Source of the DNA: Gemmatirosa kalamazoonensis | GTDB taxonomy: Bacteria > Gemmatimonadota > Gemmatimonadetes > Gemmatimonadales > Gemmatimonadaceae | Assembly: GCF_000522985.1 (NCBI RefSeq) | Contig: NZ_CP007128.1 | Coordinates: 3,580,220 to 3,644,219, forward strand | Direction of reading: 5' to 3' | DNA: 64,000 nt | Shown: positions 16,315-50,715 of the stretch, piece by piece | Layout of the letters: each line of letters opens with the position of its first letter | How positions within the stretch are numbered: position 1 is the first letter of the stretch | The notes under the pieces: generated by a model | Seen by the model: the letters and a program-made list of their open reading frames with translations, nothing else | Databases searched by the model: none | What the model was told of the DNA's origin: nothing | Position numbers and translations under genes: made by a program

Positions 16315-16329
16315 GCGCGGCCTAACGTA

Positions 16330-24625: not shown

Positions 24626-25812
24626 CCACTACACGTCGCCTCGCGCTCGCGTTAGGCGCGGTCGCGCTCTCCGCGGGAACGGTCGCCGCGCAGGGAAGCC
24701 TCAGCACGCAGGGGTACGGCTACCCGAGCGGTGAGCTGAGCACGCGCGCGCTCGGCACCGGCGGCTCGGTCGCCGAGTTCGATCCCGCGTCGCCGATCAA
24801 CCCCGCGGCGCTCGGCTCGTGGGGCGCCTCGCCGATCAACTCGGCCATCCGCCGGTGGTGGGGCCGCACCGCGTTCACCGCGCAGTACGATCCCGAGTTC
24901 CGCCGCGTCACGTCCGGCGGGCAGTCGCAGAACGCGACGCTCACGCGCTTTCCGCTCATCGCCATCGGCATCCCGATCCGCGAGCAGCTGCAGCTCGGCG
25001 TGTCCGCGGCGACGCTCCTCGACCGCACGTTCTCGACGTCGGTGCCGTCCACGGAGACGATCGGCGGCGAGACGGTGACGGGCACGCAGCTGATCGAGTC
25101 GCGCGGCTCCATGGAGGACGTGCGGCTCGGCGCGGCGTACAACGTCGGGCGCCGGCTGTCGTTAGGCCTCGCCGGACACCTCGTCACCGGGCAGCACCGC
25201 GTGGTGAGCGGCCGCACGTTCACCGACACGACGCAGTTCGGCACGGTGAGCGACTCGAGCGGCGTGGAGTTCACCGGTCTGGCGTTCTCCGCGGGCGCCG
25301 AGTGGCGCATCGTGCCGGGCTTCAGCGTCGCCGGGTCGTATCGCCGCGGCGGCACACTGCGCGCGGAGCGCAACGACACCACGCTGCGCCGCGCGCAGGT
25401 GCCGGACCGCGTCGGCGTCGGCGTGCGCGTCGACCGGCTGCCGGGCGCGTCGTTCACCGCCTCGTGGTCGCAGACGTCGTGGACGAAGATGAACGGCCTC
25501 GGCGCGTCGGCGCTGCGCATCACCGACGCGCCGGAGTACGCCGCCGGCGTGGAAGCGGTCGGGCCGCGGCTCGGGCCGAGCGCGCTGCTGTTCCGGCTCG
25601 GCGGGCGCCGTCGCACGCTGCCGTTCGGGCTCGGCGACTCCGATGTGCGCGAGACGGCGTTCTCCGGCGGACTCGGCGCGCCGTTCACCGGGGGCCGCGC
25701 GATCCTCGACCTCGGGCTGCAGCACGCGTCGCGGTCGCTCGTCGGCGGCACGGCGTCGAGCGCGACCGAGCGCGCGTGGACGCTCAGCGTGGGCCTGACC
25801 GTCCGGCCGTGA
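24622..25812 (+). CDS. Outer-membrane beta-barrel-like protein of unknown function
   Basis: 396 aa. A signal peptide (cleavage near AQ/GS, residue 24) precedes alternating amphipathic strands with many Arg/Gly/Thr residues, ending in a strand WTLSVGLTVRP that resembles a barrel terminus. Segments such as FDPASPINPAALG recall FadL/PorV-type proteins, whose N-termini carry an NPA motif. The GTG at 24622 overlaps the upstream lipoprotein stop, so the two are translationally coupled. It contains two CGTTAGGC octamers (24650 and 25160), both using TTA for Leu. Confidence 0.6.
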   Translation: MTTTRRLALALGAVALSAGTVAAQGSLSTQGYGYPSGELSTRALGTGGSVAEFDPASPINPAALGSWGASPINSAIRRWWGRTAFTAQYDPEFRRVTSGGQSQNATLTRFPLIAIGIPIREQLQLGVSAATLLDRTFSTSVPSTETIGGETVTGTQLIESRGSMEDVRLGAAYNVGRRLSLGLAGHLVTGQHRVVSGRTFTDTTQFGTVSDSSGVEFTGLAFSAGAEWRIVPGFSVAGSYRRGGTLRAERNDTTLRRAQVPDRVGVGVRVDRLPGASFTASWSQTSWTKMNGLGASALRITDAPEYAAGVEAVGPRLGPSALLFRLGGRRRTLPFGLGDSDVRETAFSGGLGAPFTGGRAILDLGLQHASRSLVGGTASSATERAWTLSVGLTVRP

Positions 25813-27106: not shown

Positions 27107-27344
27107 TCGGCGCCTAACGGGTCGCCGCCGCCGCGCGGCCTTGCGGCGTCCTCCGGCGGCCCGCATGATAGGCGCGCCTTCCGACGTGAGACCGCCCGCT
27201 CGTGACGTCGCCGAGCACTCGCACGGGCACTTCCGGTCGGACGCCGCGCCCGCTCTCGACGCGTCGCCGGACCCGCAGCGACAGTCGATGTAGCCAGGCA
27301 GCCGCCGCCTCTGTCACGATTCCCCGTCACAGGAGGCACCGTCC
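27107..27344. other. Gap upstream of the PPC-repeat lipoprotein gene
   Basis: 238 bases without a gene. A GCCTAACG octamer (27112-27119) starts five bases after the kinase stop and is followed by a GC-rich hairpin-forming stretch, CCGCCGC...GCGGC, up to about 27145. A strong Shine-Dalgarno AGGAGG at 27331-27336 precedes the ATG at 27345 by eight bases. No confident promoter was found. Confidence 0.5.
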
Positions 27345-30300
27345 ATGTTGCGCCGCCTCGTCGTCGTCGCCTGCCTCGTGGCAGCATGCGATCGGTTCGA
27401 AGCCACGACGGCACCGAGCGGGCCCACCCCCGACGCAGCGGCGCTGCGTGTCACGGGAGCCGCGCCAGCCGAGTCGCCCGTCGTCGCGGCCGTCACGTCG
27501 ACGTTCGAGTTCCTGCCGCCGCTCGGGACTGGCGTCGAGGATCCGTCGACGTTCGACGCCACCGCGGCACCGACCGTGGAGGTCTGCGCGTGGAACGGCA
27601 CGGCGTGCACGGCGCCGCCGGTCGTCACGTTCTCCACGACCCCGTCGGGCTCCACGCTGCCGATCACGATCGATGCGGTCGCCGGCCGCTACGTGGCGTC
27701 GTGGAATCTGCTGGACGCCCGCTTCACCACGCGTCTCACGTACCGCATTCGCGTGCTGCAGGGGGCCACGGAGCTGGGGGCCGTCTCGGTCGACGTCGTG
27801 CGCGGGCGGTGGGCGCTCACGCGCAGCGACGGCACGCTCGCGCCACTGCTCGCCGCGAGCGAGCTGCCGATCGCGTTCACCATCGCCAGCGTATCGGCCG
27901 GGCCGGGGCCGCTGCGGAACGGCGCGACCGCCACGGGGCGCATCGCCCTCGCGCACCAGGTGGACACGTGGACGTTCACGGCGAACGCCGGCGACCACGT
28001 GGTGCTGAGCCTCGGCGAGACCGGCACGACGCTGAACTTCTCGCCGTGGCTGCGCGTCAACGCGCCCGGCGGAACGCTGGTCGCGAGCAACTTCGGGTTC
28101 TTCGCCGCGCAGGTGGAGTTCACCGCGACGACCACCGGCACGTACTCGGTGCTCGTCGCGAGCGCCGACGGGGGTGGCGTGGGCACGGGCGACTACCTGC
28201 TCACGCTGATCAAGGCCCCGGGCGCGCTGGTCGTGTCGCCGGGCGATCAGGGCGGCACGCTCGGGAACGGGACCACCCACACCGGCAACATCTACCTCGG
28301 CGACATCGACGGGTGGACGTTCTCGGCGAACGTCGGCGACCACGTCGTCGTGAGCGTCGGCGAGACCGCGAACTCCTCCGGCTTCTCGCCGTGGCTGCGC
28401 ATCGTCGCGCCTAACGGGACCGTCGTCGGCTCCAACTTCGGCTTCGTCGCGGCGCAGATCGAGTTCGCGGCGACCGTGGCGGGGACGTACACCGTGATCG
28501 TGGGCAGTGCCGCCGGCGGGTTCACCGGCACCGGCGACTACCTCATCACCTCGGTCCGCGCGCCCGGCATCGTGACGGCGTCGAGCGGCGACGAGGGCGG
28601 GCCGCTTGTCAACGGCGCCACCGCGACGGGCGCCATCTACAGCGGCGACATCGACGGCTGGACGCTGACGGCCAACCAGAGCGAGCACGTCGTCGTCAGC
28701 CTCGGTGAGACGACCAACTCGTCGGGCTTCTCGCCGTGGCTGCGCGTGCTGGCGCCGGACGGCTCCGTGGTGGCCAGCAACTTCGGGTTCTCTGCCGCGC
28801 AGGTCGAGTTCTCGGCGCCGATGTCCGGCACCTACACGGTCGTCGTCGCCAGCGCCGGCGGTGGGTTCACCGGCACCGGCGACTACCTGCTGACGTACAT
28901 CAAGGCGCCCGGAGCGCTCACCGTCTCCACCGGCGACGAGGGCGGCGCGCTCACGAACGGCGCGACCCACACCGGCACGATCTACCTGGGCGACGTGGAC
29001 GGCTGGACGTTCGCCGCCAACGCGGGCGACCGGGTCGTGGTCAGCCTCGGCGAGACGACGAATTCGTCCGGCTTCTCACCCTGGCTGCGCGTCGTCGGGC
29101 CGACCGGCGCGGTGATCGGCAGCAACTTCGGGTTCTCAGCGGCCCAGGTGGAGTTCGCCGCGCCGACCACCGGCACGTACACCGTGATCGTGGGCAGTGC
29201 GGGGGGCGGGTTCACCGGTACGGGCGACTATCTGCTGAGCTACATCAAGGCGCCGGGCGCGGTCACCGTCTCGACCGGCGACCAGGGCGGCGCGCTCGTG
29301 AACGGCGCCACGCACGCCGGCACCATCTATCTCGGCGACATCGACGGCTGGACGTTCTCCGCGGCCGCGAACGACCACGTCGTCGTGAGTCTCGGCGAGA
29401 CGACGAACTCCTCGGGCTTCTCGCCCTGGCTGCGCGTCGTCGCGCCTAACGGCACGGTGGTCGGCAACAACTTCGGCTTCTCCGCGGCGCAGGTGGAGTT
29501 CAGCGCGCCGGTCGCGGGCACCTACACGGTGATCGTCGCGAGCGCGGGCGGCGGCTTCACCGGCACGGGCGACTACCTGCTGACGCTCGCGAAGGCGCCG
29601 GGCGCGGTCGCCGTGTCCGCGAGCGACGAGGGCGGCCCGATGACGAACGGCGCGACGCACACGGGCACGATCTACCTCGGCGACGTCGACGTGTGGACGT
29701 TCACGGCGACGATGGGGAACCGCGTCGTCGTGAGCCTGGGCGAGACCACGAACTCGTCGGGCTTCTCACCGTGGCTGCGGATCGTCGGGCCCGACGGCGC
29801 GCCCGTCGGATCCAACTTCGGCTTCTCGGCCGCGCAGCTGGAGTTCAACGCGGCGCTCACGGGCACCTACACCGTGATCGTGGGGAGCGCGGGCGGCGGG
29901 TTCACCGGCACCGGCGACTACCTGCTCACGCTGATCCGGGCGCCCGGCACGCTCACCGTCTCCGCCGGCGACCAGGGCGGCGCGCTCGCGAGCGGCGTCA
30001 CGAGCACCGGCACCATCTACACGGGCGACGTCGATGGCTGGACGTTCGCGGCGAACGCCGGCGACCCGATCGCCCTCGACCTCGCGGAGACCGGCGTCAC
30101 GTCGGGCTTCTCGCCGTGGCTGCGCGTGATCGGGCCTAACGGTAACGTCGTCGCCAGCAACTTCGGCTTCGCGGCGGCGCACGTCGCGTTCGTCGCCGCG
30201 ACGACCGGGACGTACACCGTGATCGTCGCCAGCGCCGGCGGCGGATTCACCGGCACGGGCGACTACAACCTGCTGCTCACCGGAAGCACCGCCTCGTTCC

Positions 30301-30395
30301 GCGCCGCGGCGCCGGCGGGCGGCGGCGAGTCGGGCGGTCGACTCGGCTGCGCGCGCGGCGTGCAGGCCTGCGCGGCGGCCATCCGCTCGCCGTGA
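27345..30395 (+). CDS. Secreted lipoprotein with seven 115-residue PPC-like repeats
   Basis: 1016 aa. The lipoprotein signal LVAAC (Cys 15) is followed by an Ig-like region (about 50-180) and seven tandem copies of a 115-residue module. Each copy runs from an N-G-(A/T)-T-x-x-G turn, through D-x-D-x-W-T-F, SGFSPWLR and SNFGF, to FTGTGDY. The modules resemble bacterial pre-peptidase C-terminal (PPC) domains. The nucleotide period is 345 bases (FTGTGDY-type segments at about 28185, 28530, 28875, 29220, 29565, 29910 and 30255), and copies 2-6 are very similar, pointing to recent expansion. A C-terminal tail contains two Cys. Probably surface-displayed; ligand unknown. Confidence 0.75.
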   Translation: MLRRLVVVACLVAACDRFEATTAPSGPTPDAAALRVTGAAPAESPVVAAVTSTFEFLPPLGTGVEDPSTFDATAAPTVEVCAWNGTACTAPPVVTFSTTPSGSTLPITIDAVAGRYVASWNLLDARFTTRLTYRIRVLQGATELGAVSVDVVRGRWALTRSDGTLAPLLAASELPIAFTIASVSAGPGPLRNGATATGRIALAHQVDTWTFTANAGDHVVLSLGETGTTLNFSPWLRVNAPGGTLVASNFGFFAAQVEFTATTTGTYSVLVASADGGGVGTGDYLLTLIKAPGALVVSPGDQGGTLGNGTTHTGNIYLGDIDGWTFSANVGDHVVVSVGETANSSGFSPWLRIVAPNGTVVGSNFGFVAAQIEFAATVAGTYTVIVGSAAGGFTGTGDYLITSVRAPGIVTASSGDEGGPLVNGATATGAIYSGDIDGWTLTANQSEHVVVSLGETTNSSGFSPWLRVLAPDGSVVASNFGFSAAQVEFSAPMSGTYTVVVASAGGGFTGTGDYLLTYIKAPGALTVSTGDEGGALTNGATHTGTIYLGDVDGWTFAANAGDRVVVSLGETTNSSGFSPWLRVVGPTGAVIGSNFGFSAAQVEFAAPTTGTYTVIVGSAGGGFTGTGDYLLSYIKAPGAVTVSTGDQGGALVNGATHAGTIYLGDIDGWTFSAAANDHVVVSLGETTNSSGFSPWLRVVAPNGTVVGNNFGFSAAQVEFSAPVAGTYTVIVASAGGGFTGTGDYLLTLAKAPGAVAVSASDEGGPMTNGATHTGTIYLGDVDVWTFTATMGNRVVVSLGETTNSSGFSPWLRIVGPDGAPVGSNFGFSAAQLEFNAALTGTYTVIVGSAGGGFTGTGDYLLTLIRAPGTLTVSAGDQGGALASGVTSTGTIYTGDVDGWTFAANAGDPIALDLAETGVTSGFSPWLRVIGPNGNVVASNFGFAAAHVAFVAATTGTYTVIVASAGGGFTGTGDYNLLLTGSTASFRAAAPAGGGESGGRLGCARGVQACAAAIRSP

Positions 30396-30441: not shown

Positions 30442-31188
30442 ATGCGCTCGGACCATCGCCGCACGCGGGCCGCGCGACGCGGACGCGCCGCCGTCGCGGG
30501 CATCGTCCTGCTCCTCGCGTCGGCGGCGAATCGCGCCGCCGCGCAGACCAGCCACTTCAGCGCGTGCACCACGGGAATCCTCGCGAACTGCGCCGACGTG
30601 CTGCTCACGGCCACGCCGGGCGGCGGCGTCGGCGGCACGACGCTGTTCGAGATCGCGCTGCGCAACCTCGGCTCGACGTCGACGCCGGCGCTGCCGACGA
30701 GCATCTACTTCCTCGTGTTCGGCACCGGGTTGCCGCCCGCGCCGGGCGCGGAGGTGAGCGCGCTGCCGGTGCCGGGGCCGATCGGCGGCGCGACGCTCGC
30801 CGATCCGTCGCCCTGGGACCTGTTCGAGAACGGCGATGCCGTCTTCCTCTCCGCGCTGTCGAACAACGGTGTCGGAGGCTGCGTGGTCGGCGCGCCGGTG
30901 GGCGGGTTCGGACAGGCGGGCAACACGTGCGGCGTCGGCCAGTACCTCACGTTCAGCTTCTCGACGCCGAGGCTGCTGGATCCGCGTGCGTTCTCGGTGC
31001 TCGACCTCGAGGTCGTGGGCCTGGACCCGACGCTGCCCACGGACAGCTGCGGCGCGCGGTCGCCGTGCGCGGTGTTGCCGGTGGGCGGCGTCGTGCCGGA
31101 GCCGGCCACGATGCCGCTGCTCGCGGCCGGCCTGGCCGTGATGGCCACGTTAGGCGCCCGGCGCCGCCGGCGGTCCGAGGTGGCCTAA
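30442..31188 (+). CDS. PEP-CTERM sorting-signal protein
   Basis: 248 aa. A signal peptide (ends near AAAQ, residue 35) and a Gly/Pro-rich, Cys-containing beta-type body precede a C-terminal VPEPATM motif (about 217), a hydrophobic helix and a basic RRRRR end. That is the tripartite signal processed by exosortase (Xrt/EpsH). No exosortase gene is in the window. The ATG at 30442 is preceded by GGAGG (30433-30437); a GTG 36 bases upstream is less likely. The TAA stop is embedded in a GCCTAACG octamer (31183-31190). Confidence 0.85.
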   Translation: MRSDHRRTRAARRGRAAVAGIVLLLASAANRAAAQTSHFSACTTGILANCADVLLTATPGGGVGGTTLFEIALRNLGSTSTPALPTSIYFLVFGTGLPPAPGAEVSALPVPGPIGGATLADPSPWDLFENGDAVFLSALSNNGVGGCVVGAPVGGFGQAGNTCGVGQYLTFSFSTPRLLDPRAFSVLDLEVVGLDPTLPTDSCGARSPCAVLPVGGVVPEPATMPLLAAGLAVMATLGARRRRRSEVA

Positions 31189-31498
31189 CGACCGGCGCGC
31201 GAGGCGCGCGGGGCGAGAACGTCAATCACGAACCTCGCTGTCACGGTCACGCCGCTGAACGCGGGCGGCCAGGTGGGTTGGCGCTCGCTCTGAGCCAGGC
31301 GCTGGCGGTCGCGACGCGCGTGGGGCCGACGTTCGACGAGGTCACCCACGGCGCTGCTGCCTCGGAGGCGGCGCGGGCGTGCTCGGCATCGTGTGGGCAC
31401 GGCGGCGCCGGCGGCGGGTCGCGCCGGCGGACGAAACCGTCTAAGTTGCAGGGTCGCAACGCGTTCCATTCGTCGACCCGCCCTTCGACCGGTAGCAG
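31189..31498. other. Gap upstream of miaB
   Basis: 310 bases. It begins with the tail of the GCCTAACG octamer. No gene, RNA element or confident promoter was recognised. TAAGTT at 31442-31447 could serve as a -10 for miaB, but no fitting -35 is visible. Confidence 0.4.
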
Positions 31499-32866: not shown

Positions 32867-34312
32867 TCACTTCCGCTTCATGGTGCTGCGGTAGATCGCG
32901 ACCGGCACCTCCACGAAGCTGACGTCCATGTTCTTCCGCGCGAGGAGCGAGTCGCGCGCGGCGGCGGCCTCCTTCTTTCGCCCGAGCTTCGTCAGCGCCT
33001 CGATCGTGGCCAGCTCGTTCTCCGGGTCGGCGCCGCCCTGCTTGAGGTGTGCGATGGCCTCCTCGTACTTCCCGTTCGCGAGCGCCGCGAGGCCGGTGGC
33101 GCTGTGCACGTACTCCGGCTTGATGCCGGAGTCCGGGTTCCGTGCTTCGTCGACGTACGCGGCGAGCTGCTCGGTGGCCGTCGTGCCCATGCCGGTGAGC
33201 GCCGCCGCATAGATCCGCCAGAAGGCCAGATCGGCGCGCGACTCGCCGAGCCGCGCGGCGTCGGCGAGCTCGCGCCCGACGGCCGCGGTATCGCCCATCG
33301 CCGCGTAGAGGAACGACGTCACGGCGTGCGCGTTCGCCGCCGCGCCGGGCAGGTTGTCGGTCTCGGCCTGCTGCGCGATGGACCTCAGCCCTGCCACCGC
33401 GTCGCCGATCGCTCCCTCCTCGACGCGCAGCAGTGCCTGCGTGACGCGCATGCCGACGCGCCGCGGCAGGCTCTGTGAAACGGTGATCGCGCTGTCGAGA
33501 TAGGCGCGCGCGAGCGTGACCTTGCGGTCGCGCGACGCGATCTCCGCCTTCGTGTAGTACACCCAGTCGATCGGCTCCGCCGCGCTCGACCGGTCGAGGT
33601 ACTGCATCGCCTCGTCGTGCCGCAGCAGCCGCTCGGCCACGTAGCCGCGCACGCCGAGGAGGCTCGCCCCCTCGGGCTGCGCGCGGAGCCCAGCGTCGGC
33701 AGCGGCGAGCGCTTCGTCGGCGACCGTCTGGTCGTAGGTCAGAATCGCCGACGGGACGAGGCTCACCGCGAGATACGCGTGCGCAGGCGCGTATTCCGGA
33801 GCGCGCCGCGCCAGCTCGCGCAGGAGGTTCAGGCGCGCCGTGTCCGTGCGCGACAGCGCACGCTTCAACGCGATGCGGCGATCGTCCGGGTACATCTGCG
33901 CGAGCGCGTCCCAGATCGCACGCGCGTTCGCTCCGCGGCCGGCGGCTCCCTCGCGCTGGGCGAGCGCCATCAGCGCCTCGCCTGCGGATCCCTTCGCGGC
34001 GTCCGCGACCGCGCGGTCGTGCTGAGCGATCGACGGCCGACCGCCGGTGATCAGCGCGAGCTCCGATCGGGCCAGACCGAACCCGCTGTCGGAGTCGAGC
34101 GCCATGCGCAGGTGGCGGGCGGCCGCCGCGAAGTTCCCGACGAGGTTCGCGTCGAGCCCCGTCTCGTAGTGCGCGACCGCCTCGGCGCGTGCCCCCGTAG
34201 GCTCGAGCGCGCGGACGTTCGCCGCCGGCTGCGCCTGGGCCTTCGCGCGCGCGGCTCCAGCGGTGAGAAGAGCTGCCACGACGACGAGTGACCGCCAGTT
34301 CGTGTTGCGCAT
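32867..34312 (-). CDS. Secreted TPR-repeat protein
   Basis: 481 aa. A signal peptide (cleavage after ARAKA, near 25) precedes helical repeats with a TPR pattern throughout, for example AVAHYETGLDANLVGNFAAA, EAMQYLDRSSAAEP and GKYEEAIAHLKQGGADPE. No enzymatic domain is visible. It probably acts as a periplasmic scaffold or interaction protein. The ATG at 34312 is preceded by a promoter candidate on the minus strand (34400-34427). It is convergent with miaB, 18 bases away. Confidence 0.7.
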   Translation of the reverse strand: MRNTNWRSLVVVAALLTAGAARAKAQAQPAANVRALEPTGARAEAVAHYETGLDANLVGNFAAAARHLRMALDSDSGFGLARSELALITGGRPSIAQHDRAVADAAKGSAGEALMALAQREGAAGRGANARAIWDALAQMYPDDRRIALKRALSRTDTARLNLLRELARRAPEYAPAHAYLAVSLVPSAILTYDQTVADEALAAADAGLRAQPEGASLLGVRGYVAERLLRHDEAMQYLDRSSAAEPIDWVYYTKAEIASRDRKVTLARAYLDSAITVSQSLPRRVGMRVTQALLRVEEGAIGDAVAGLRSIAQQAETDNLPGAAANAHAVTSFLYAAMGDTAAVGRELADAARLGESRADLAFWRIYAAALTGMGTTATEQLAAYVDEARNPDSGIKPEYVHSATGLAALANGKYEEAIAHLKQGGADPENELATIEALTKLGRKKEAAAARDSLLARKNMDVSFVEVPVAIYRSTMKRK

Positions 34313-34399
34313 GCGACCCTCCGAAGCAGGATGTGAGCTTGCTCCGAGTCGCTTCCGCCGCGGCGGCGCTGCCCGCCCGGCGGGAACGGCAGCGGGTCA

Positions 34400-34427
34400 A
34401 CGATAGGCATCCCAGGGATTGCTGCAA
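34400..34427 (-). promoter_or_regulatory. Promoter candidate for the secreted TPR gene
   Basis: On the minus strand, TTGCAG (34427-34422) and TATCGT (34405-34400) are separated by 16 bases, giving a leader of about 80 bases before the ATG at 34312. Confidence 0.5.
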
Positions 34428-34474
34428 GGCCGGCGTCGTCTGCCGGCCCCTGGCGTCCTCGGCCGCGTGCGCGC

Positions 34475-34492
34475 CGTTAGGCGCGCCTAACG
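34475..34492. repeat. 18-bp palindrome made of two CGTTAGGC octamers
   Basis: CGTTAGGCGCGCCTAACG is a perfect palindrome of two octamers around a GC centre. It lies 11 bases past the stop of the upstream minus-strand gene, where a terminator would be expected, and before the TPR promoter. There is no T-run. Paired uptake sequences acting as terminators are known in Neisseria and Haemophilus, and the placement is alike. Confidence 0.9.
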
Positions 34493-34503
34493 ACGCGCGC
34501 CGG

Positions 34504-35124
34504 TCAGTTGGTCCACGGCGCGCGCGGCGGCTCGCACGCCGCCACGCGCCGCGGCTCCTCGCGGTCGGACGCGATCCGCCAGCACTCGTCGTACAGCGAG
34601 CAGTAGCACGCCTCGATCTCGAGCCGCTCGCGCGACGTGTCCGACGGGAGCGGCCGCTGCGCCTCGCGCCAGAACGCCACGGCCTCGCTGTCGACCGGCA
34701 GCTGCACGATCGACCGCTCGGTGCCCGGGAGCAGCACGCTGCCGCGGTGGAACGTGGTGAAGTAGGCGCGCGCGTCGCGGCCGAGCAGCGCGCGCGCCAC
34801 CGCGTCCCAGTTGGGGCGCGCGACCCCGTCGACGCGCACCTCCACGGCGCGCACCACGGCCGGCCCGAGCCCGTCGTTCGCGACGTGGATCGCGTAGCCG
34901 TGGCCCGGCTGATCCCAGTTGTGCCCCACGCGCACGTACGGCCACGCGCTCGCGCGCTGCTGCTCGCGCATGATCTTCGTCTGGTAGAGCGAGACCGCGA
35001 GCGCCGAGAGCGCGACGACGCCGGCCGACGCGGAGAGCGCACGGTCGAGGAAGAGGCGCGCGCGGCGCGGCGGTGGTTGCTGCTGGGGATCCGTCACGGG
35101 TGCCGTTGCTGGGGGCGCGTGCAT
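34504..35124 (-). CDS. Single-pass membrane protein of unknown function
   Basis: 206 aa. A Pro/Gln-rich N-terminus and one transmembrane helix (about 28-47) are followed by YQTKIMREQQRASAWPYVRVGHN and a predicted beta-sandwich domain ending in Cys-containing EACYCSLYDECW. Proteins with this helix-plus-strand layout are often annotated as hypothetical; I recognise no family name. The ATG at 35124 is divergent from comEC. An 18-bp octamer palindrome lies directly after its stop. Confidence 0.6.
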   Translation of the reverse strand: MHAPPATAPVTDPQQQPPPRRARLFLDRALSASAGVVALSALAVSLYQTKIMREQQRASAWPYVRVGHNWDQPGHGYAIHVANDGLGPAVVRAVEVRVDGVARPNWDAVARALLGRDARAYFTTFHRGSVLLPGTERSIVQLPVDSEAVAFWREAQRPLPSDTSRERLEIEACYCSLYDECWRIASDREEPRRVAACEPPRAPWTN

Positions 35125-35230
35125 GCTCGCCGCGCGCTCCGCGGCGTGCAAGGGCGGCGCTGCGTTCGGCCCGCCCGGGCGGCGTTCCTCGGGGCACGCG
35201 CGTGAGGCGCCGCCGCCGCACGTTCGGCGG

Positions 35231-37510
35231 GTGCCCCTCGTCTTCCTCGCGTACCTCGCCCTCGTCGCCGGCCTCGCGCTCGGCGCCGCGCTGCCGGCGG
35301 GTGTCGTACTCGGCGCGGTCGCCTGCGCGGCGGTGTGTGCGTGCCGGCGCGATCCACGGAACGTCGGGCTCGCGCTCGCGTGCGCCGCCGGGATGCTGCA
35401 GACCGTCGCCGCGCGGCGCGTGGACGCCGCGTGCCGCGCGCGGATCCTGCGCGGCGGCCGCACCGACGCGGTGCTCGAGGCCGACGCGTCGCCCGGCGCG
35501 CGCGTGACCGCGGCGGCGCACGGGTGCGCGCTGGCGCTCTCGCTCACCGTCGCGCGGGGGCGCGCCGACGCGGGCGACGTCGTCACGGTGCGCGGCACGT
35601 TCGCGCCGACGGCCCGCGGCGCCCTCGTGCGCGACGTCTCGCTGGCGAGGACCGGCGAGCACATGACGATCGTCGCGATGCGGGCGCGCGCTGGCCGGAC
35701 CATCGACGCGATCTTCGGCGCCGATGCGCCGCTCGCCCGCGCGCTCGTCGTCGCCGACGCCGCCGCGATCCCGCGCGACGTCCGCGACCGGTTCGCCGAT
35801 GCGGGGCTCGTGCATCTCCTCTCGGTGTCGGGGCTGCACGTGTCGCTCGTCGCGGCGGCGCTCGAGCTGCTGCTCGGCGCGATGCGGCTGTCGCGTCGCA
35901 CGGCGTCGGTCGCGGCGGCCGTCGCGGTCGCGGGGTACGTGCTGCTCATCGGGGCGCCGCCGCCCGCGGTGCGCGCGGGCACCATGCTCGGCGCGCAGCT
36001 CGCGTCGCGCGTGCTGCAGCGGCCGTCGTCGCCGTGGACGTTCCTCGCGTTAGGCGGCGCGGTACCGCTGCTGCTCGATCCGCGCGCGGTATTCGACGTG
36101 GGCTATCAGCTCTCCGTGGCGGGCATGGCATCACTCGTCGGCGGCCGAGCACTGTTCCGACGATGGATCGACGGGCTCACGGATCCACCGCGTGGCGCGC
36201 GGCGGACGATCGCCCGCGAGCTCGCGGTGAGCGCGGTCGCATCCGCCGTCACGGCGCCGGTCGTCGCCTGGTCGTTCGGCCGGGTGAGCCTCGTCGCGCC
36301 GCTCTCCAACCTCGTGGCGGCGCCGATCGTCGCCGCGCTGCAGCCGACGCTGTTCCTCGCGGTGCTCCTGGCACCCGTTAGGCCGCTCGCGTTGCACGTC
36401 GCGGGCGCCGCGCGGCTGCTGCTCCGCGCGCTCGACGCGGTCGCTCGCGGTGCCGCCGACGTGCCGCACGCCGCGCTCGCCGTCGCGCCGTCCCTCGGCA
36501 CCGCCGTGTGCTCTGCGGGGGCGGGCGTGGCGCTGCTCGCCGCGTGCGCCGCGCGGTCGCGATGGGTCCGTGCGCGCGCCGCGATCGTCGCGGCGGCGTC
36601 GCTCGCGCTCGCGGCGTGGTCGCCGTTGCTCGCCGTCTCCGGAAGCGGCGAGGTCGAGCTGCACATGCTCGACGTGGGACAGGGCGATGCGATCGCGGTG
36701 CGCACGCCGCACGGGCACTGGGTGCTCGTCGACGCGGGCAGAGTGTGGCGCGGCGGCGATGCCGGACGCGCGACGGTGCTGCCGTACCTGCGCCGTCGTG
36801 GTGGGCCGCTCGACGCGTTCGTGCTCTCGCATCCGCACGCGGACCACGTCGGCGGCGCGGCGAGCGTGCTCGCGGCGATGCATCCGCGGCGGTACCTCGA
36901 CGCCGCGTTCGCGCTCGGCAGCGACGTGTACCGCGCGTCGCTCGAGGCGGCCCGCACGTCCGGCGTCGCGTGGGAGCGCGTGCGTCCGGGCGAGGAGCTG
37001 CGCGTCGACGGCGTCGCGCTGCGCGTGCTCGCCCCGGATTCCGCGTGGACCGCGTCGCTCGACGACCCGAACCTCGCGAGCGTGATCCTCTCGGTACGTT
37101 GGCGCGGGGTGCGGTTCCTGCTGGTGGGAGACGCAGAGGCGCCCGAGGAGCGCTGGCTCGTGGAGCGTGCGGCGGCCGATGCCGCGCTCGCCGACGCGCT
37201 GCGCGCCGACGTGCTGAAGGTGGCGCACCACGGCAGTCGCACGAGCTCCACGCCGGAGTTCCTCGCGCTCGTGCGGCCGCGCGTGGCGCTGGTGAGCGTG
37301 GGCGCGGGGAACAGCTACGGTCTGCCGAACGACGACGTATTGCGGCGACTCGCGCTCGGCGGCGCCGAGGTGCTGCGCACCGATCGATGGGGCACCATCG
37401 TCGTGCGGACCGATGGCCGCGCGATCACCGTGGACGCGGGAGGAGAGCGGTGGAGCGTTCCACCACGCAGCACGACGCCGGATTCGTCGCGCGGCTCGTC
37501 GGATCCCTGA
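35231..37510 (+). CDS. comEC: DNA internalisation competence protein ComEC/Rec2
   Basis: 759 aa. Forms the inner-membrane channel that brings single-stranded DNA into the cell during natural transformation. It has an N-terminal DUF4131-type region, a competence domain with LLSVSGLHVSLVAAA (about 200), many membrane helices, and a C-terminal metallo-beta-lactamase domain with LDVGQGDAI, SHPHADHVGG (about 534-543) and VAHHGSRTS (about 665). The start was set at GTG 35231 (PLVFLAYLALVAG). An in-frame ATG at 35123 would share its bases with the start codon of the divergent gene. Two CGTTAGGC octamers lie inside. The next gene overlaps by 61 bases. Confidence 0.94.
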   Translation: MPLVFLAYLALVAGLALGAALPAGVVLGAVACAAVCACRRDPRNVGLALACAAGMLQTVAARRVDAACRARILRGGRTDAVLEADASPGARVTAAAHGCALALSLTVARGRADAGDVVTVRGTFAPTARGALVRDVSLARTGEHMTIVAMRARAGRTIDAIFGADAPLARALVVADAAAIPRDVRDRFADAGLVHLLSVSGLHVSLVAAALELLLGAMRLSRRTASVAAAVAVAGYVLLIGAPPPAVRAGTMLGAQLASRVLQRPSSPWTFLALGGAVPLLLDPRAVFDVGYQLSVAGMASLVGGRALFRRWIDGLTDPPRGARRTIARELAVSAVASAVTAPVVAWSFGRVSLVAPLSNLVAAPIVAALQPTLFLAVLLAPVRPLALHVAGAARLLLRALDAVARGAADVPHAALAVAPSLGTAVCSAGAGVALLAACAARSRWVRARAAIVAAASLALAAWSPLLAVSGSGEVELHMLDVGQGDAIAVRTPHGHWVLVDAGRVWRGGDAGRATVLPYLRRRGGPLDAFVLSHPHADHVGGAASVLAAMHPRRYLDAAFALGSDVYRASLEAARTSGVAWERVRPGEELRVDGVALRVLAPDSAWTASLDDPNLASVILSVRWRGVRFLLVGDAEAPEERWLVERAAADAALADALRADVLKVAHHGSRTSSTPEFLALVRPRVALVSVGAGNSYGLPNDDVLRRLALGGAEVLRTDRWGTIVVRTDGRAITVDAGGERWSVPPRSTTPDSSRGSSDP

Positions 37511-39072: not shown

Positions 39073-40668
39073 ATGACCGACGACCGCCTCTCCCCCTCCG
39101 GCATCCCCGTCTGCCTCACGTATCGTCCCGACGACGCGCCCGTCGACTACGCGCGCGACCTCGGCGACGCCGGCAGGTTTCCGTTCACGCGCGGCGTGCA
39201 GCCCACGATGTACCGCGGGCGCCTGTGGACCATGCGGCAGTACGCCGGTTTCGGCACCGCCGCGGAGACCAACGCGCGCTTCAAGCTCCTGCTCGAGGCG
39301 GGGCAGACCGGGCTCTCCACCGCGTTCGACCTGCCGACGCAGATGGGCTTCGACTCCGACTCGCCGCGCGCGTTAGGCGAGGTGGGGCGCGTCGGCGTCG
39401 CGATCGACACGGTCGAGGACATGCACGCGCTGCTCGCCGATCTGCCGCTCGACCGCGTGTCGACGTCGATGACGATCAATGCGACGGCGGCGATCCTGCT
39501 CGCGATGTACGTCGTCGTGGCGGAGGAGCGTGGCATCCCGCGCGCGTCGCTCTCCGGCACGGTGCAGAACGACATCCTGAAGGAGTACATCGCGCGCGGC
39601 ACGTACGTCTTCCCGCCGGGGCCGAGCCTCGCGCTCACCGCCGAGATGTTCCGCTTCTGCGCGGCCGAGGTGCCGCAGTGGAACCCGATCTCCATCTCCG
39701 GCTACCACATCCGCGAGGCCGGCGCGACCGCGGTGCAGGAGCTCGCGTTCACGTTCGCGAACGGCGTGGAGTACGTGAGGCAGGCGGTGCGGGCGGGGCT
39801 CGCGGTGGACGCGTTCGCGCCGCGGCTGTCGTTCTTCTTCGCCGCGCACAACGACCTGTTCGAGGAAGTCGCGAAGTTCCGCGCCGCGCGGCGGCTGTGG
39901 GCGCGGCTGATGCGCGAGCGGTTCGGCGCGTCGGACGCGAGCGCGCGGCTCCGCTTCCACACGCAGACCGGCGGCGTCACGCTCCAGGCGCAGCAGCCGC
40001 TCAACAACGTCGTGCGCGTCACGGTCCAGGCGCTCGCCGCGGTGCTCGGCGGCACGCAGTCGCTGCACACGAACGGCTACGACGAGGCGCTCGCGCTCCC
40101 GACGGCGGAGGCGGCGACCCTGGCGCTCCGCACGCAGCAGATCGTCGCCCACGAGAGCGGTGCCGCGCAGACCGTCGACCCGCTCGCCGGCAGCTACTAT
40201 GTCGAGGCGCTCACGAACGAGATCGAGGCGCGCGCGACCGAGCTGCTCGCGCAGGTCGACGACATGGGCGGCTCGCCGGAGGCGATCGCGCGCGGCTTCT
40301 TCCAGGAGGAGATCGCGCGCAGCGCGTACGAGTACCAGCTCCGCGTCGAGCGCGGCGAGGCGGTCGTCGTCGGCGTGAACCGCTTCGGCGACGGCAGCGA
40401 GCCGCCGATCATCCCCGCGCCGGACTTCTCCTCGCTCGAGCGCGCGCAGGTCGGCGCGCTGGCCGAGGTGCGCGCGCGCCGCGACGCGAGCGCGGTGCGC
40501 GATGCGTTAGGCGCCATCTCCGACGCCGCGCGCCCCTACGTCGAACCAGACGCCGAGCGTCCGCCGCTCATGCCGCTCGTGATCGACGCGGTGCGCGCCC
40601 GCGCGTCCGTCGGCGAGATCACCGACGCGCTCGCGGCGGTCTGGGGCCACTACACGCCGACGATGTGA
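39073..40668 (+). CDS. Methylmalonyl-CoA mutase large (catalytic) subunit, without B12 domain
   Basis: 531 aa. The acyl-CoA-binding TIM-barrel subunit of an adenosylcobalamin-dependent mutase. Motifs are the N-terminal [21 protein letters not shown] region (here the Tyr of RQYAGF favours methylmalonyl-CoA over isobutyryl-CoA, which has Phe), [17 protein letters not shown], and [13 protein letters not shown]. The DXHXXG cobalamin-binding domain is absent and must be a separate small subunit, not in this window. The start is ATG 39073; the frame also has a TTG at 39070. Octamers occur at 39371 and 40505. The cobalamin importer at 61.5-64 kb provides a physiological link. Confidence 0.9.
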
Positions 40669-42206: not shown

Positions 42207-43954
42207 GCGCGCCCGACCGGATCCGTTCCGAGCTCGCGCGCGCGGCCCAGGCGCTCGGCGCCCCCGACGGCATCGACGTCATCCTGGAGCGGCCGCGCGA
42301 TCCGTCGTTCGGCGACTGGACGACGAATCTGGCGATGACGCTCGCCCGCACGCTGAAGCGGCCGCCGCGCGACATCGCGCAGTCGCTCGTCGCGACGATG
42401 AGCCTCGCCGACGCCGGCGTCTCGTCGGCCGACGTCGCCGGCGCGGGGTTCATCAACTTCAAGCTCGACCCCGCGTTCGTCGCGCGCGGCATCCTCCCGA
42501 TCCTCGCGCGCGACGGGCAGTACGGGCGCGACACGGAGTGGATCGGCGAGCGCGTGGTGGTGGAGTTCGTGAGCGCGAATCCCACCGGGCCGCTGCACGT
42601 CGGCCACGGACGACAGGCGGCGTTAGGCGATGCCATCTCGACGCTGCTCGAGTGGACGGGATGGCAGGTGTCGCGCGAGTTCTACTACAACGACGCCGGC
42701 ACGCAGATCGAGAACCTCGCGAAGAGCACCTGGATCCGTGTCTCGCAGCGCATCGGCGTCGACGCCGCGATTCCCGAGGGCGGCTACAACGGCGAGTACA
42801 TCAAGGACATCGCCGAGTCGTTCGTCGCGCAGTGCGGCATGCCGGACGGCGTCACGCTGACGGCCGGTGTCGCGGCGATCAACGCCGGCGACCGCCCGGT
42901 GCACGACGACCTGTTCGAGGAGATGCGCCGGCACGCGGTGCAGATGCTCCGCGGCGAGCAGAACCTCGACCTGCAGGCGTTCGGCGTCGCGTTCGACACG
43001 TACTTCCTGGAGTCGTCGCTCTACGCGCCGGGCTCCGCCCGCGAGGCGACCCCGGACATCGCGTCGGACGACATGAGCGCCGTGGACGCGACGGTGGAGG
43101 CGCTCGTGCGCGCCGGTCACACGTACGAGGAGGACGGCGCGCTGTTCCTCCGCACCACCGCGTACGGCGACGACAAGGACCGCGTGATGCGCAAGAGCGC
43201 GGCGAAGGGCGGCGACTACACGTACTTCGTGCCCGACGTCGCGTACCACGTGACGAAGTGGGAGCGCGGCTTCAAGCGCGCCATCAACGTGCAGGGGAGC
43301 GACCACCACGGCACGACGGCGCGCGTGCGCGCGGGGCTGCAGGCGTTGGGCCTCGGCATCCCGCCGGGCTATCCGGAGTACGTGCTGCACCAGATGGTGA
43401 CCGTGACACGCGGCGGCGAGGAGGTGAAGATCTCCAAGCGCGCCGGCTCCTACGTCACGGTGCGCGATCTCATCGACTGGGTGGGGCGCGACGCGGTCCG
43501 CTACTTCTACCTGCAGCGCAAGGGCGACTCGCACCTCGTGTTCGACGTCGACCTCGCGCGCTCGCAGAGCGAGGAGAACCCGATCTATCGCATCCAGATG
43601 GCGCACGCGCGGATGAGCGGGATCTTCCGCCAGGGCGAGCTGGACGCGGCCAGCATGAAGTGGGACGACGTCGACGTCGCCTTGCTCGCCGAGCCGGCCG
43701 AGCAGGAGCTGATCAACGCGCTCGCCGACTTCCCACGCGTCGTGTCGCAGGCCGCCGAGGCGCTCGAGCCGCACCGCGTGGCGCTGTACCTGCTCGACAC
43801 CGCGGGGCTGGTGCACGGCTGGTACCACAAGCACCACGTGCTGGGCCAGGAGGCGCCGCTCATGACGGCGCGTCTCGCGCTCGCTCGCGCCGCGCAGATC
43901 GTGCTCCGCAACGGCCTCACCATCCTCGGCATCTCGGCGCCGGACCGGATGTAA
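42203..43954 (+). CDS. argS: Arginine--tRNA ligase
   Basis: 583 aa. A class Ia synthetase. Motifs are the N-terminal Add1 domain, the HIGH-box variant HVGHGRQ (about 132-138), the KMSKS-box variant KISKR (about 411), and the DALR anticodon-binding domain at the C-terminus (ARMSGIFRQ onward). VVVEFVSANPTGPLHVGH is diagnostic. Length is normal. The ATG overlaps the FmdB-like gene's stop, so the zinc-ribbon gene and argS are coupled. Confidence 0.97.
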   Translation: MSAPDRIRSELARAAQALGAPDGIDVILERPRDPSFGDWTTNLAMTLARTLKRPPRDIAQSLVATMSLADAGVSSADVAGAGFINFKLDPAFVARGILPILARDGQYGRDTEWIGERVVVEFVSANPTGPLHVGHGRQAALGDAISTLLEWTGWQVSREFYYNDAGTQIENLAKSTWIRVSQRIGVDAAIPEGGYNGEYIKDIAESFVAQCGMPDGVTLTAGVAAINAGDRPVHDDLFEEMRRHAVQMLRGEQNLDLQAFGVAFDTYFLESSLYAPGSAREATPDIASDDMSAVDATVEALVRAGHTYEEDGALFLRTTAYGDDKDRVMRKSAAKGGDYTYFVPDVAYHVTKWERGFKRAINVQGSDHHGTTARVRAGLQALGLGIPPGYPEYVLHQMVTVTRGGEEVKISKRAGSYVTVRDLIDWVGRDAVRYFYLQRKGDSHLVFDVDLARSQSEENPIYRIQMAHARMSGIFRQGELDAASMKWDDVDVALLAEPAEQELINALADFPRVVSQAAEALEPHRVALYLLDTAGLVHGWYHKHHVLGQEAPLMTARLALARAAQIVLRNGLTILGISAPDRM

Positions 43955-44900: not shown

Positions 44901-45958
44901 GCGACGCATCGCGCGGCGGCTCGGGCATGGACTATCGCGCGGCCGGCGTCGACCTCGACGCCGCTGACGCCGCGAAGCACCGCCTCAAGCGCCTCGTCGA
45001 GAGCACGCTCACCGACGGCGCGCGCGGCCGCTTCGGCGGCTTCGGCGGCATGTTCCGCGTGCCGCCGGGCGCACGCGCGCCGTTGCTCGTCGCGAGCGCC
45101 GACGGCGTCGGCACGAAGGTGAAGGTCGCCGTCGAGGCGAACCGGCTCGACACGGTGGGCCACGACCTCGTGAACCACTGCGTGAACGACGTGCTCGTGC
45201 AGGGCGCGCGCCCGCTGTTCTTCCTCGACTACGTCGCGTTCGGCAAGCTCGATCCCACCGCGGTCGAAGCGGTGGTGGCCGGCGTCGCCGCGGGATGCCG
45301 CGAGAACGGCTGCGCGCTCATCGGCGGCGAGACCGCGGAGATGCCCGGCGTCTACACGCCGCCCGACTTCGACCTCGCCGGCTTCATCGTCGGCTGGGTC
45401 GAGGAGGACGCGGTGCTCGGTCCGGATCGGGTCCGCGACGGCGACGCGATCGTCGGGCTGGAGAGCACCGGACTGCACACGAACGGCTACTCGCTCGCGC
45501 GCCGCATCGTGTTGGAGCGCATGCGCCTCGGCCCGCACGACGCGTTTCCCGATGGTGACGGCACCGTCGCCGACGCGCTGCTCGCGGTGCACCGCTCGTA
45601 TCTCCCCGCGCTCGAGCCGGTGCTCGACCGCGTCCACGCGATGGCGCACATCACCGGCGGCGGTCTGCCCGGCAACCTCGATCGCGCGCTCCCGCCGCAC
45701 TTCGACGCCGTCGTCGACGCCGACTCGTGGGAGGTCCCGCCGCTGTTCCGCGCGCTGGAGCGCGCCGGAGGCGTCGCGCGCGACGAGATGTTCCGAACGT
45801 TCAACATGGGCGTGGGTATGACCGTCATCACACCGCCGGAGCACGCGGGCGCGGTCATTGCCTCCGCCCAGGCGCGGGGCGTGCGCGCCTGGCGGCTCGG
45901 CCGCGTGCGGCCCGGCAGCGGCCGCGTGGCGATCGAGGGCGCGGCCGCCGGTGCCTAA
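44897..45958 (+). CDS. purM: Phosphoribosylformylglycinamidine cyclo-ligase
   Basis: 353 aa. The AIR synthetase of de novo purine synthesis (ATP-dependent ring closure). Motifs are DGVGTKVKVA, GHDLVNHCVNDVLVQGA, GGETAEMPGVY, STGLHTNGYSLAR and the ITGGGLPGNLDR loop. The GTG at 44897 overlaps the PfkB stop; an internal ATG at 44928 is a weaker alternative. The gene ends with GCC TAA, where the stop is part of a GCCTAACG octamer (45953-45960). Confidence 0.96.
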   Translation: MSDASRGGSGMDYRAAGVDLDAADAAKHRLKRLVESTLTDGARGRFGGFGGMFRVPPGARAPLLVASADGVGTKVKVAVEANRLDTVGHDLVNHCVNDVLVQGARPLFFLDYVAFGKLDPTAVEAVVAGVAAGCRENGCALIGGETAEMPGVYTPPDFDLAGFIVGWVEEDAVLGPDRVRDGDAIVGLESTGLHTNGYSLARRIVLERMRLGPHDAFPDGDGTVADALLAVHRSYLPALEPVLDRVHAMAHITGGGLPGNLDRALPPHFDAVVDADSWEVPPLFRALERAGGVARDEMFRTFNMGVGMTVITPPEHAGAVIASAQARGVRAWRLGRVRPGSGRVAIEGAAAGA

Positions 45959-45986
45959 CGATCACGCTCGCAGCCCGGAGAATACC

Positions 45987-47018: not shown

Positions 47019-48106
47019 TGGACGACGCCGCCTTCATGCGGCGCGCGCTGCGGCTCGCCCGCCGCGGCTGGGGATCGACGGCGCCGAACCCGATGGTCGG
47101 CGCCGTCGTCGTTCGTGACGGCGAGATCGTGACCGAGGGCTGGCACGCGCGCTACGGCGGCCCGCACGCCGAAGCCGCAGCGCTCGCGGCGGCCGGCGAC
47201 CGCGCCCGCGGCGCCACCGTCTACGTCACGCTCGAGCCGTGCAACCATCACGGCAAGACGCCGCCGTGCAGCGACGCGCTGATCGCCGCCGGCGTTAGGC
47301 GCGTCGTCGTCGCCGCCGAGGATCCGCATCCGGTCGCCGCGGGTGGAGCGAAGAAGCTGCGCGCGCACGGCATCGAGGTCGTGACGGGCGTCGAGCGCGA
47401 GGCCGCGCGCGAGCTGAACGCGCCGTTCTTCCACGCGCTCGCGTCGGACCGCCCGTGGGTCGTCCTGAAGCTCGCGCTCTCGCTCGATGGCGCGGTCGCG
47501 GACGACACGCGGCGTCCGGGTTGGCTCACCGGGCGCGCCGCGCGCCGCGAGGTGCACCGACTGCGCGCGGGGAGCGACGCCGTGGCCGTCGGCATCGGCA
47601 CCGCGCTCGCCGACGACCCCGAGCTGACCGTGCGCGATGCGTCCGCGCCGCGCGTGCCGCCGCTGCGCGTGGTGTTCGATCGGAGCGCGCGGCTCCCCGA
47701 CGTGTCGCGCCTCGTGCGCACCGCGCGCGACGTGCCCACGGCGGTCGTGGTGAGCCCGCACACGCCCGCCGCGCGCCTGAACGATCTCGAGGGCGCCGGC
47801 GTTCGCGTCGTGCGCGCGGCGACGCTGCACGACGCGCTGCGCGCGCTGCGGGCCGACCACGACGTGCGCTCGCTGCTCGTGGAAGGGGGCGCCGGGCTCG
47901 CCTCGGCCCTCTGGACGGCCGGGCTGGTCGACCGGCTGATTACCTTTCAGGCACCCGTCGTACTCGGCCGTGGCGCGCTGCCCGCGTTCGGTGACGTGCC
48001 GGCGGCCCGCGCCGAGGCGGCGCGGCGGCTGCCCATCGTCGCGCGGCGCGCGTTCGGCGACGACCTCATGACCATCTACGCCGTGCACACCCTGGAGTCC
48101 CGCTAG
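47018..48106 (+). CDS. ribD: Bifunctional riboflavin biosynthesis deaminase/reductase RibD
   Basis: 362 aa. Deaminates and then reduces the pyrimidine intermediate of riboflavin synthesis. The N-terminal zinc deaminase domain has HAE (His50, Glu52) and PCNHHGKTPPC (Cys75, Cys84). The C-terminal reductase domain has VVLKLALSLDGAVA, WLTGRAARREVHRLRAGSDAVAVGIGTALADDPELTVR and LLVEGGAGL. The order deaminase-then-reductase is standard. The ATG touches the previous stop (TGATG) and the TAG shares a base with the ribE GTG. An octamer lies at 47293. Confidence 0.97.
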   Translation: MDDAAFMRRALRLARRGWGSTAPNPMVGAVVVRDGEIVTEGWHARYGGPHAEAAALAAAGDRARGATVYVTLEPCNHHGKTPPCSDALIAAGVRRVVVAAEDPHPVAAGGAKKLRAHGIEVVTGVEREAARELNAPFFHALASDRPWVVLKLALSLDGAVADDTRRPGWLTGRAARREVHRLRAGSDAVAVGIGTALADDPELTVRDASAPRVPPLRVVFDRSARLPDVSRLVRTARDVPTAVVVSPHTPAARLNDLEGAGVRVVRAATLHDALRALRADHDVRSLLVEGGAGLASALWTAGLVDRLITFQAPVVLGRGALPAFGDVPAARAEAARRLPIVARRAFGDDLMTIYAVHTLESR

Positions 48107-48708
48107 TGTTCACCGGCCTCGTCGACGACGTCGGCCTCGTCGAGCGCGTCGACGTCACGGACGCCGGGCGCGAGTTCCGCGTGCGCTGTCGCTACGACGA
48201 CCTCGTCGATGGCGAGAGCGTCGCCTGCGACGGCGTGTGTCTCACGGTGCGCGAGAAGGGCGCCGGCTGGTTCACGGTCGCGGCGGCGTTCATGACGCTC
48301 GAGCGCACCACCCTCGGCGACTGGGCCGCGGGCCGGCGCGTGAACCTCGAGCGTGCGCTGCGCCTCGGCGACCGCCTCGGCGGCCACATGGTCCAGGGAC
48401 ACGTCGACGCCGTCGGCACCGTGCGCTCGGCCGTGGTGCACGAGGACGCGCTGCTGATCGACGTCGCGGTTCCCGACGAGATCGACGCGCTGCTCGTGCC
48501 GCACGGCTCCATCACGCTGGACGGCGTGAGCCTCACCGTGAACGCATTGCCCGCGCCCGGCATTCTGCAGGTGTCGATCATCGAGTACACGCGCCGCCAC
48601 ACGACGTTAGGCGACCGCGCCGCCGGCGACGGCATCAACGTGGAGGCCGACGTGATCGCGAAGCATGTCCAGCGTCTGATCGCGCCACATCTGACAACAC
48701 GCACGTGA
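48106..48708 (+). CDS. ribE: Riboflavin synthase (alpha chain)
   Basis: 200 aa. Dismutates two 6,7-dimethyl-8-ribityllumazine molecules to riboflavin. The internal duplication is visible: MFTGLVDDVG with VACDGVCLTV in the N-terminal barrel, and GGHMVQGHVD with ITLDGVSLTVN in the second. The C-terminal helix drives trimerisation. The start GTG 48106 shares one base with the ribD TAG. An 18-bp perfect hairpin (48711-48760) follows the stop before ribBA. Gene naming varies (ribE/ribC). Confidence 0.96.
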   Translation: MFTGLVDDVGLVERVDVTDAGREFRVRCRYDDLVDGESVACDGVCLTVREKGAGWFTVAAAFMTLERTTLGDWAAGRRVNLERALRLGDRLGGHMVQGHVDAVGTVRSAVVHEDALLIDVAVPDEIDALLVPHGSITLDGVSLTVNALPAPGILQVSIIEYTRRHTTLGDRAAGDGINVEADVIAKHVQRLIAPHLTTRT

Positions 48709-50187: not shown

Positions 50188-50715
50188 ATGCCCGAGTTCG
50201 TCGGCACGCCTAACGCCAGCGGACGCCGCTTCGTCGTCGTCGCCAGCCGGTTCAACGAGTCCGTCACGCGTCCGCTCGCCGAGGGCGCCGTCGATGCGTT
50301 CACGCGCCACGGCGCGGCGTTCGACGACGTCGACGTCGTGTGGGTGCCCGGTGCGTGGGAGCTGCCCGCCGCGGTGCGCAAGGTGCTCGCGAGCGACCGC
50401 TACGCAGCCGTCGTCGCCGTCGGTGCGGTCGTCCGCGGCGAGACGCCACACTTCGATTACGTCGCCGGCGAGGCCGCGCGCGGGCTCGCCGACGCGAGCG
50501 CGGAGTTCGACGTCCCCGTCGCGCTCGGCCTGCTCACCACCGACACGATGGAGCAGGCCGAGGCGCGCGCCGGCGGCGCGCACGGCAACAAGGGGTGGGA
50601 CGCCGCGATGGCCGCGATGGAGATGGCCGATCTGTTCGACCTGCTCGATTCGGCCGCCGATGCGGAGTCGGATCTCGAGGGCGGGGACGGGGAGGACGAC
50701 GATGCCGAAAGGTGA
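50188..50715 (+). CDS. ribH: 6,7-dimethyl-8-ribityllumazine synthase
   Basis: 175 aa. Condenses the ribityl pyrimidine with DHBP, the step before riboflavin synthase. Motifs are VVASRFNESVT, WVPGAWELPAA, VGAVVRGETPHFDYVA (catalytic His) and GLLTTDTMEQAEARAGG. ATG 50188 was chosen because it gives the family N-terminus and follows AAGAAGAG; an ATG at 50149 would add 13 residues encoded in the hairpin flank. An acidic C-terminal tail of ~20 residues is unusual. The stop lies 14 bases inside nusB. Confidence 0.96.
   Translation: MPEFVGTPNASGRRFVVVASRFNESVTRPLAEGAVDAFTRHGAAFDDVDVVWVPGAWELPAAVRKVLASDRYAAVVAVGAVVRGETPHFDYVAGEAARGLADASAEFDVPVALGLLTTDTMEQAEARAGGAHGNKGWDAAMAAMEMADLFDLLDSAADAESDLEGGDGEDDDAER

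Follow-up and report, generated by a model that had tools for sequence, protein, structure and literature searches.

An exact octamer resembling a DNA uptake sequence, iterated throughout the genome of Gemmatirosa kalamazoonensis and patchily among its relatives

The octamer CGTTAGGC occurs 4,469 times in the 7.48-Mb genome of Gemmatirosa kalamazoonensis, as compared to 133 occurrences of a reversed control (the same letters backwards). We propose, from sequence comparisons, that it is a genome-wide iterated word that probably works like a DNA uptake sequence and is maintained by biased transformation, a reading to which we assign a probability of roughly 0.6. In the window, i.e., the whole stretch of 64,000 nucleotides that was analysed, there are 41 exact copies where 0.8 are expected, a count reached by none of 100 shuffles. 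This excess is far from chance and needs a cause, whatever the nature of the word. The overall pattern is that of an uptake-like word and is well supported, the octamer being abundant, exact and symmetric, preferring gene ends, turning over in position and being distributed by genus; from this pattern we infer that it serves uptake, that a receptor is involved and that biased transformation is the cause. The first-pass annotation had already spoken of uptake sequences, and abundance, symmetry, the sharp 8-bp boundary, turnover and the genus-wise distribution all bear out that description, while the function itself is what we infer.

On this reading, the octamer on free DNA would be bound at the cell surface by a receptor, most probably a type IV pilin; DNA bearing the octamer would be preferentially drawn in via the pilus and the ComEC machinery and then recombined. 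Alleles carrying the octamer would be over-represented in the incoming DNA, so that the word could spread and persist, presumably where it is least harmful: inside genes in the reading xCG TTA GGC, at gene ends where it supplies the stop codon, or immediately after the stop. Uptake biased in this way, with recombination after it, would explain why the word is symmetric and exact, why decayed copies are lacking and why positions turn over, and equally why the word is found on all resident replicons, favours permissive places and is scarce where DNA is of odd composition.

Abundance, exactness and placement of the octamer

Uptake words are characterised by extreme over-representation of one exact short word, and that is what the octamer displays. 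In 1.364 Mb, 872 intact copies were counted where a third-order model gives 36.8, and genome-wide the two orientations are equal (2,275 plus, 2,194 minus). The conserved unit is exactly 8 bp, the flanking bases being without conservation. Copies with a single change at positions 2, 6, 7 and 8 number 1, 10, 10 and 9, mostly below expectation, and three variants are enriched in the same 1.364 Mb, namely C1T (84 vs 14 expected), T4C (132 vs 66) and A5G (172 vs 32). Density is similar across the large replicons (5,311,527, 1,106,233 and 1,040,503 bp), with 0.655 octamers per kb on the chromosome and 0.633 and 0.662 on the two megaplasmids in a 464-kb sample; the value of 0.85 on the fourth replicon, of 20,952 bp, is affected by a duplication there. 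This small element (L019, G000:C1:1-20000) matches itself when shifted by 14,997 bases, with 5,003 of 5,003 positions agreeing over the part compared, and from its sequence resembles a ~15-kb circle whose ends are duplicated; a PLSDB search with it gave no match, although that search may omit the window's own genome. Further over-represented words in the window, of the CTCCACGCTCCACG and ACTCGGGACTCGGG types, resemble short tandem repeats. In the literature, the matches listed for the bare octamer were all unrelated by title.

Extreme abundance with disfavoured substitutions is also described for the cyanobacterial octamer HIP1 in the portion of PMC4390886 available, and it is conceivable that the word is modification-linked in the same manner, kept by a methyltransferase or a linked repair bias. 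However, HIP1 is palindromic, as a site of a resident methyltransferase would be, and the octamer is not; nor does it appear in the methylome of strain KBS708, which has m6A at RGATCY, ATGCAC and CCAGN7TCA only (PMC3974934, a paper that does not exclude 5mC and 4mC). We regard a modification-linked origin as quite unlikely.

Within the window, plus-strand copies lie at 11085–11092, 13224–13231, 15605–15612, 16122–16129, 17662–17669, 19778–19785, 24650–24657, 25160–25167, 31148–31155, 34475–34482, 36048–36055, 36376–36383, 39371–39378, 40505–40512, 42621–42628, 47293–47300, 48605–48612, 53416–53423, 55971–55978, 57093–57100, 57777–57784, 62342–62349 and 62597–62604, and minus-strand copies at 3541–3548, 11756–11763, 12368–12375, 16320–16327, 17653–17660, 18267–18274, 27112–27119, 28409–28416, 29444–29451, 30134–30141, 31183–31190, 34485–34492, 45953–45960, 50208–50215, 60216–60223, 61482–61489, 61892–61899 and 63626–63633. 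The copies beginning at 17653 and 17662 stand tail-to-tail, and those at 31148 and 31183 head-to-head with a gap of 27, the copy at 31183 overlapping a gene end. Three copies (28409, 29444 and 30134) have near-identical surroundings within the large ORF at 27345–30395, a repeated segment.

Placement was studied in 48 regions of 20 kb (960 kb; two arbitrary, six around prepilin genes and 40 evenly spread so as to avoid places used earlier) with our own gene calls. The sample holds 602 octamers, of which 492 are coding, 52 lie over a gene 3′ end and 54 in gaps between called genes, the rest being two outside called genes at region ends and two where genes overlap or touch. The coding copies favour one frame, with 291 reading xCG TTA GGC and 142 reading xxG CCT AAC on the other strand, as compared to 31 as xxC GTT AGG and 28 as xGC CTA ACG. 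Of the 344 TTA codons in the sample, 291 lie inside octamers, as do 20 of 48 TAA and 38 of 153 TAG stops, and the signal therefore operates at the level of DNA and not of protein. Of the 602 octamers, 89 lie at most 25 bp from a stop, where 24.4 are expected (~3.7-fold, p 1e-25), an enrichment that is due in part to the octamer itself containing TAG and TAA; the 50 bp upstream of starts hold 16 (19.6 expected). Spacing is less clustered than in simulations once close copies are merged, with 13.6% of gaps below 400 bp vs 20.3% simulated and none of 1,000 simulations as low, and the coefficient of variation of the gaps is not significantly low (p 0.096). Octamer density rises with GC in 2.5-kb windows (rho 0.27, p 1e-7), opposite to the expectation from composition for a word with 5 G+C of 8 in a 73% G+C genome. 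Fewer octamers in lower-GC windows are as expected if newer DNA lacks the word, a depletion seen through GC content only; the genome gave a single transposase-type (rve) match, too few for a check of depletion in mobile DNA.

These data also bear on the idea that the octamer is an intracellular DNA–protein site selected copy by copy, e.g., a Chi-like signal for a nuclease of the RecBCD, AddAB or AdnAB type or a chromosome-organisation site. Such a site could well be non-palindromic, exact and present genome-wide on all resident replicons, with mutated copies nearly absent at four positions, as is the case here. Chi and FtsK-orienting sites, however, are strongly strand-skewed, and across 46 chromosome samples the strand difference of the octamer tracks the coding strand (rho 0.59) and shows no relation to GC skew (rho -0.007; GC skew is weak in this genome, and the origin and terminus were not located). 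A patchy presence across related genera (see below) would also be odd for a housekeeping signal, and we consider an intracellular site unlikely. The uptake-word reading, by comparison, calls for no orientation bias along the replicon and for permissive placement, both of which are seen.

The palindrome at 34475–34492 and the question of terminators

The 18-bp palindrome CGTTAGGCGCGCCTAACG at 34475–34492 is perfect and consists, as the first-pass annotation reported, of two inverted CGTTAGGC octamers, the left on the plus strand (34475–34482) and the right on the minus strand (34485–34492), with GC between them. It is the sole copy in the window, even allowing three mismatches, and the single exact copy in the whole genome. 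Its reported distance from the preceding stop is also correct: eleven bases (34493–34503) separate it from the TGA at 34506–34504 that ends a minus-strand ORF (34504–35097; start uncertain, no Pfam family). The next minus-strand gene (32867–34312, start at 34312) has a weak TPR match under the Pfam cut-off, and no sigma70-type promoter was found in 34250–34750. Adjoining the palindrome is comEC (35123–37510, plus strand; Pfam E 1.1e-48; start possibly 35231), the gene for the DNA uptake channel, which itself contains two octamers, one read as GCG TTA GGC (36048–36055) and one as CCC GTT AGG C (36376–36383). Gene positions come from a codon-usage gene caller written for this analysis; the small gene next to the palindrome escaped it. 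An Rfam scan of 33800–35300 gave one match, at chance level.

The palindrome had been proposed to act as a terminator, on the model of paired uptake words that double as terminators in Neisseria and Haemophilus, and several features would suit that role: it lies close beyond a stop codon, it and its flanks form, as RNA, a stem of 13 bp with a folding energy of -31.2 kcal/mol (z = -2.83), and gene ends hold half of all inverted pairs in the genome. Such stems, however, arise easily in a GC-rich genome, and the T-run that an intrinsic terminator would have in addition to the hairpin is absent, as the first reading had noted (a terminator scan of 34250–34750 returned 0 sites).

Genome-wide, inverted octamer pairs with a gap of 0–30 number 20 (9 head-to-head, 11 tail-to-tail), whereas 41.4 would be expected if the copies (2,275 plus, 2,194 minus) were scattered uniformly at random (Poisson P = 0.0002 for 20 or fewer), and ~26 from the raised density of octamers at gene ends taken by itself. 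For the arrangement in the palindrome, head-to-head with precisely two bases between the copies, the octamer counts lead one to expect 0.67 instances in the genome, and two are seen. Direct pairs are in excess (84 vs 41.4), many of them within short tandem arrays. The 20 inverted pairs comprise nine at gene ends, seven inside coding sequence and four elsewhere; the palindrome at 34475 was filed among the last because of the missed small gene, and counting it brings the gene-end total to 10 of 20. None of the 20 has a T-run. A value of zero inverted pairs in the 960-kb sample is an artefact of regions that avoided the places around pairs, and was left unused. Paired octamers are thus rarer than chance and show no excess after genes, an outcome that the first-pass annotation had itself named as telling against its proposal; in seven cases they stand within coding sequence. 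Its suggestion of a preference for gene ends holds for single octamers and fails for pairs. A functional terminator built from a pair of uptake words is therefore very unlikely at 34475, and the pairing there is a chance adjacency of two copies. On the uptake-word reading, these would be two words that settled side by side in a permissive gene-end gap, the hairpin being a by-product of their adjoining.

Distribution among relatives and the competence genes

Among 395 genomes of Gemmatimonadota, 22 contain at least 500 octamers, four contain 100–499 and 369 fewer than 100. The 22 octamer-rich genomes fall into ten genera in a patchy manner: 17 belong to the window's family (genera g1, g10, g13, g15, g17, g19, g23, g27 and g28) and five to genus g41 of another family. 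In g23, three of the four genomes counted are octamer-rich; G228, filed in that genus, has three octamers in 3.8 Mb vs thousands in its relatives, and represents either a natural loss of the octamer or a misfiled genome. In eight of nine octamer-rich genomes sampled, the octamer or else its 7-mer core ranks first or nearly first among words, the exception being G139, where a sample of 22 kb holds two octamers and the word is not near the top. Twenty samples of octamer-poor genomes, of ~20 kb each but some far shorter and one (1,937 bases) without readable bases, gave nothing comparable that might be a dialect word, although weak or rare words could be missed in samples of this size. Octamers within 25 bp of a stop exceed expectation in each of eight octamer-rich groups, with small numbers throughout (e.g., 7 vs 2.4 and 7 vs 1.1, and in g27 only 2 vs 1.7).

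How old is the octamer-rich state? On the best ComEC tree of 40 rows, which represents one gene only and has long branches, the label has to change five times; well-supported branches force no fewer than three of these changes, and a single origin is unsupported. The label is clustered but patchy, which fits either an old presence followed by losses or repeated gain. At a finer scale, in an alignment of ComEC from 21 genomes, made up of the window's genome, 15 from octamer-rich genera and five octamer-poor ones, octamers occur at nine columns, eight of which are occupied in one genus each and one in both G089 and G155, and none occurs in the five octamer-poor genomes. The residues near the octamers are often conserved and the codons differ; for instance, a Pro-Leu pair encoded as CCG CTC elsewhere is CCG TTA (followed by GGC) in three of the four g23 genomes. 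Octamer positions thus appear, from this alignment, to turn over between genera.

In some octamer-poor genomes, the few copies lie on a single contig (G255:C14, G137:C5, G002:C43 and G113:C2), on the same strand and ~0.4–2 kb apart, and by analogy these runs look like integron cassette arrays. The core of an attC site, which we take to be GTTRRRY, is matched by the GTTAGGC part of the octamer, and one may ask whether the octamers at large are attC-type recombination cores, for which the regular, cassette-like spacing of those runs would speak. An attC site, however, comprises two cores around a folded spacer, one site per cassette and all in the same orientation, whereas in Gemmatirosa the orientations are equal, most copies lie inside coding frames, and 960 kb hold only 6 tail-to-tail pairs 50–200 bp apart, so that this explanation has a negligible probability.

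The uptake-word reading calls for competence machinery in the same genome, and ComEC, DprA and 13 prepilin-type matches are indeed present; these genes are not specific to octamer-rich genomes. ComEC is found in 155 of 179 genomes of the family and DprA in 29 of 30 genomes, and neither separates octamer-rich from octamer-poor. The FimT profile matches 179 of 179 family genomes; its strongest matches are in octamer-rich g1, g10, g13 and g17, but matches are weak in octamer-rich g27 and g15 and strong in octamer-poor g12. A PilA-like pilin gene adjoins a DNA polymerase I-like gene in all four genomes examined, octamer-rich or not (G000, G101, G139 and G019; L087:8407-8790, L092:9455-9838, L095:9821-10204 and L101:9488-9877). 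This polA-adjacent pilin has a sub-threshold ComP_DUS match (20.3 bits vs a cut-off of 27.3), and its presence in octamer-poor G019 shows that it does not track the octamer. As candidate markers, then, ComEC, DprA, FimT and this pilin all fail to follow the octamer among relatives, and no receptor was identified among the pilin candidates compared. Two further observations concern the pilin repertoire. Four minor-pilin-like genes stand in a run (L090:6100-9153) on megaplasmid C4 and not on the chromosome, and presumably include FimT-like, PilV-like and PilW-like members, named by resemblance, together with a PilX-like member whose PilX_N match is sub-threshold. The chromosome and megaplasmid C3 each carry one of two near-identical PilA-type pilin genes (L086:9516-9932 and L091:9149-9568).

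A possible third uptake-sequence system and its known counterparts

According to the part of PMC12616744 (2025) available, self-recognising uptake words are on record from just two families, Neisseriaceae and Pasteurellaceae, both Proteobacteria. In the open literature searched, natural competence is not reported for Gemmatimonadota, and no paper joins the phylum with uptake sequences. In our estimation the balance tips slightly towards an uptake-sequence system of independent origin, the third of its kind and the first beyond Proteobacteria, which would be old in Gemmatimonadaceae and a neighbouring family, repeatedly lost, and carried on chromosome and megaplasmids alike. It would have reshaped codon use, most TTA codons and at least a quarter of TAG/TAA stops in Gemmatirosa being there to spell the word. 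If true, this third case, in an abundant and poorly cultured soil phylum, would permit comparative tests of why uptake words arise (molecular drive vs preferred mates), could open a route to transforming Gemmatimonadota, and would supply marked sites by the thousand at which homologous exchange in soil could be studied.

The closest likeness is to the DUS of Neisseriaceae, equally a short non-palindromic word present in thousands of exact copies, in both orientations, genic and intergenic, with permissive places preferred and one word within a genus. The sequence and the phylum are unrelated to the octamer's; for the octamer, uptake and a ComP are putative, and no dialects were found in the sampled genera. 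DUS are also often arranged as inverted pairs at terminators (PMC2397512 and PMC3630211, as far as the excerpts of both go), unlike the octamer, whose inverted pairs are depleted. The same excerpt of PMC2397512 describes a preference of uptake words for permissive core positions and their absence from recently acquired genes, which the octamer matches in part. The USS of Pasteurellaceae has a similar density, and the section of PMC2346458 consulted describes for uptake words a bias towards gene termini and one favoured orientation in reading frames, both of which the octamer shares; the USS sequence is unrelated, the octamer is without flanking conservation, and uptake here is putative. HIP1 of cyanobacteria is comparable as an extremely abundant octamer that is patchy among relatives, and differs in being palindromic and methyltransferase-linked (PMC4390886, in the same portion as above), which the octamer is not, as far as m6A shows. 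Finally, Chi is likewise a non-palindromic octamer dispersed over the genome, but the octamer described here is without a link to GC skew, and its excess is far above that of Chi in E. coli, for which the accessible part of PMC1939737 gives 1,008 copies vs 151.
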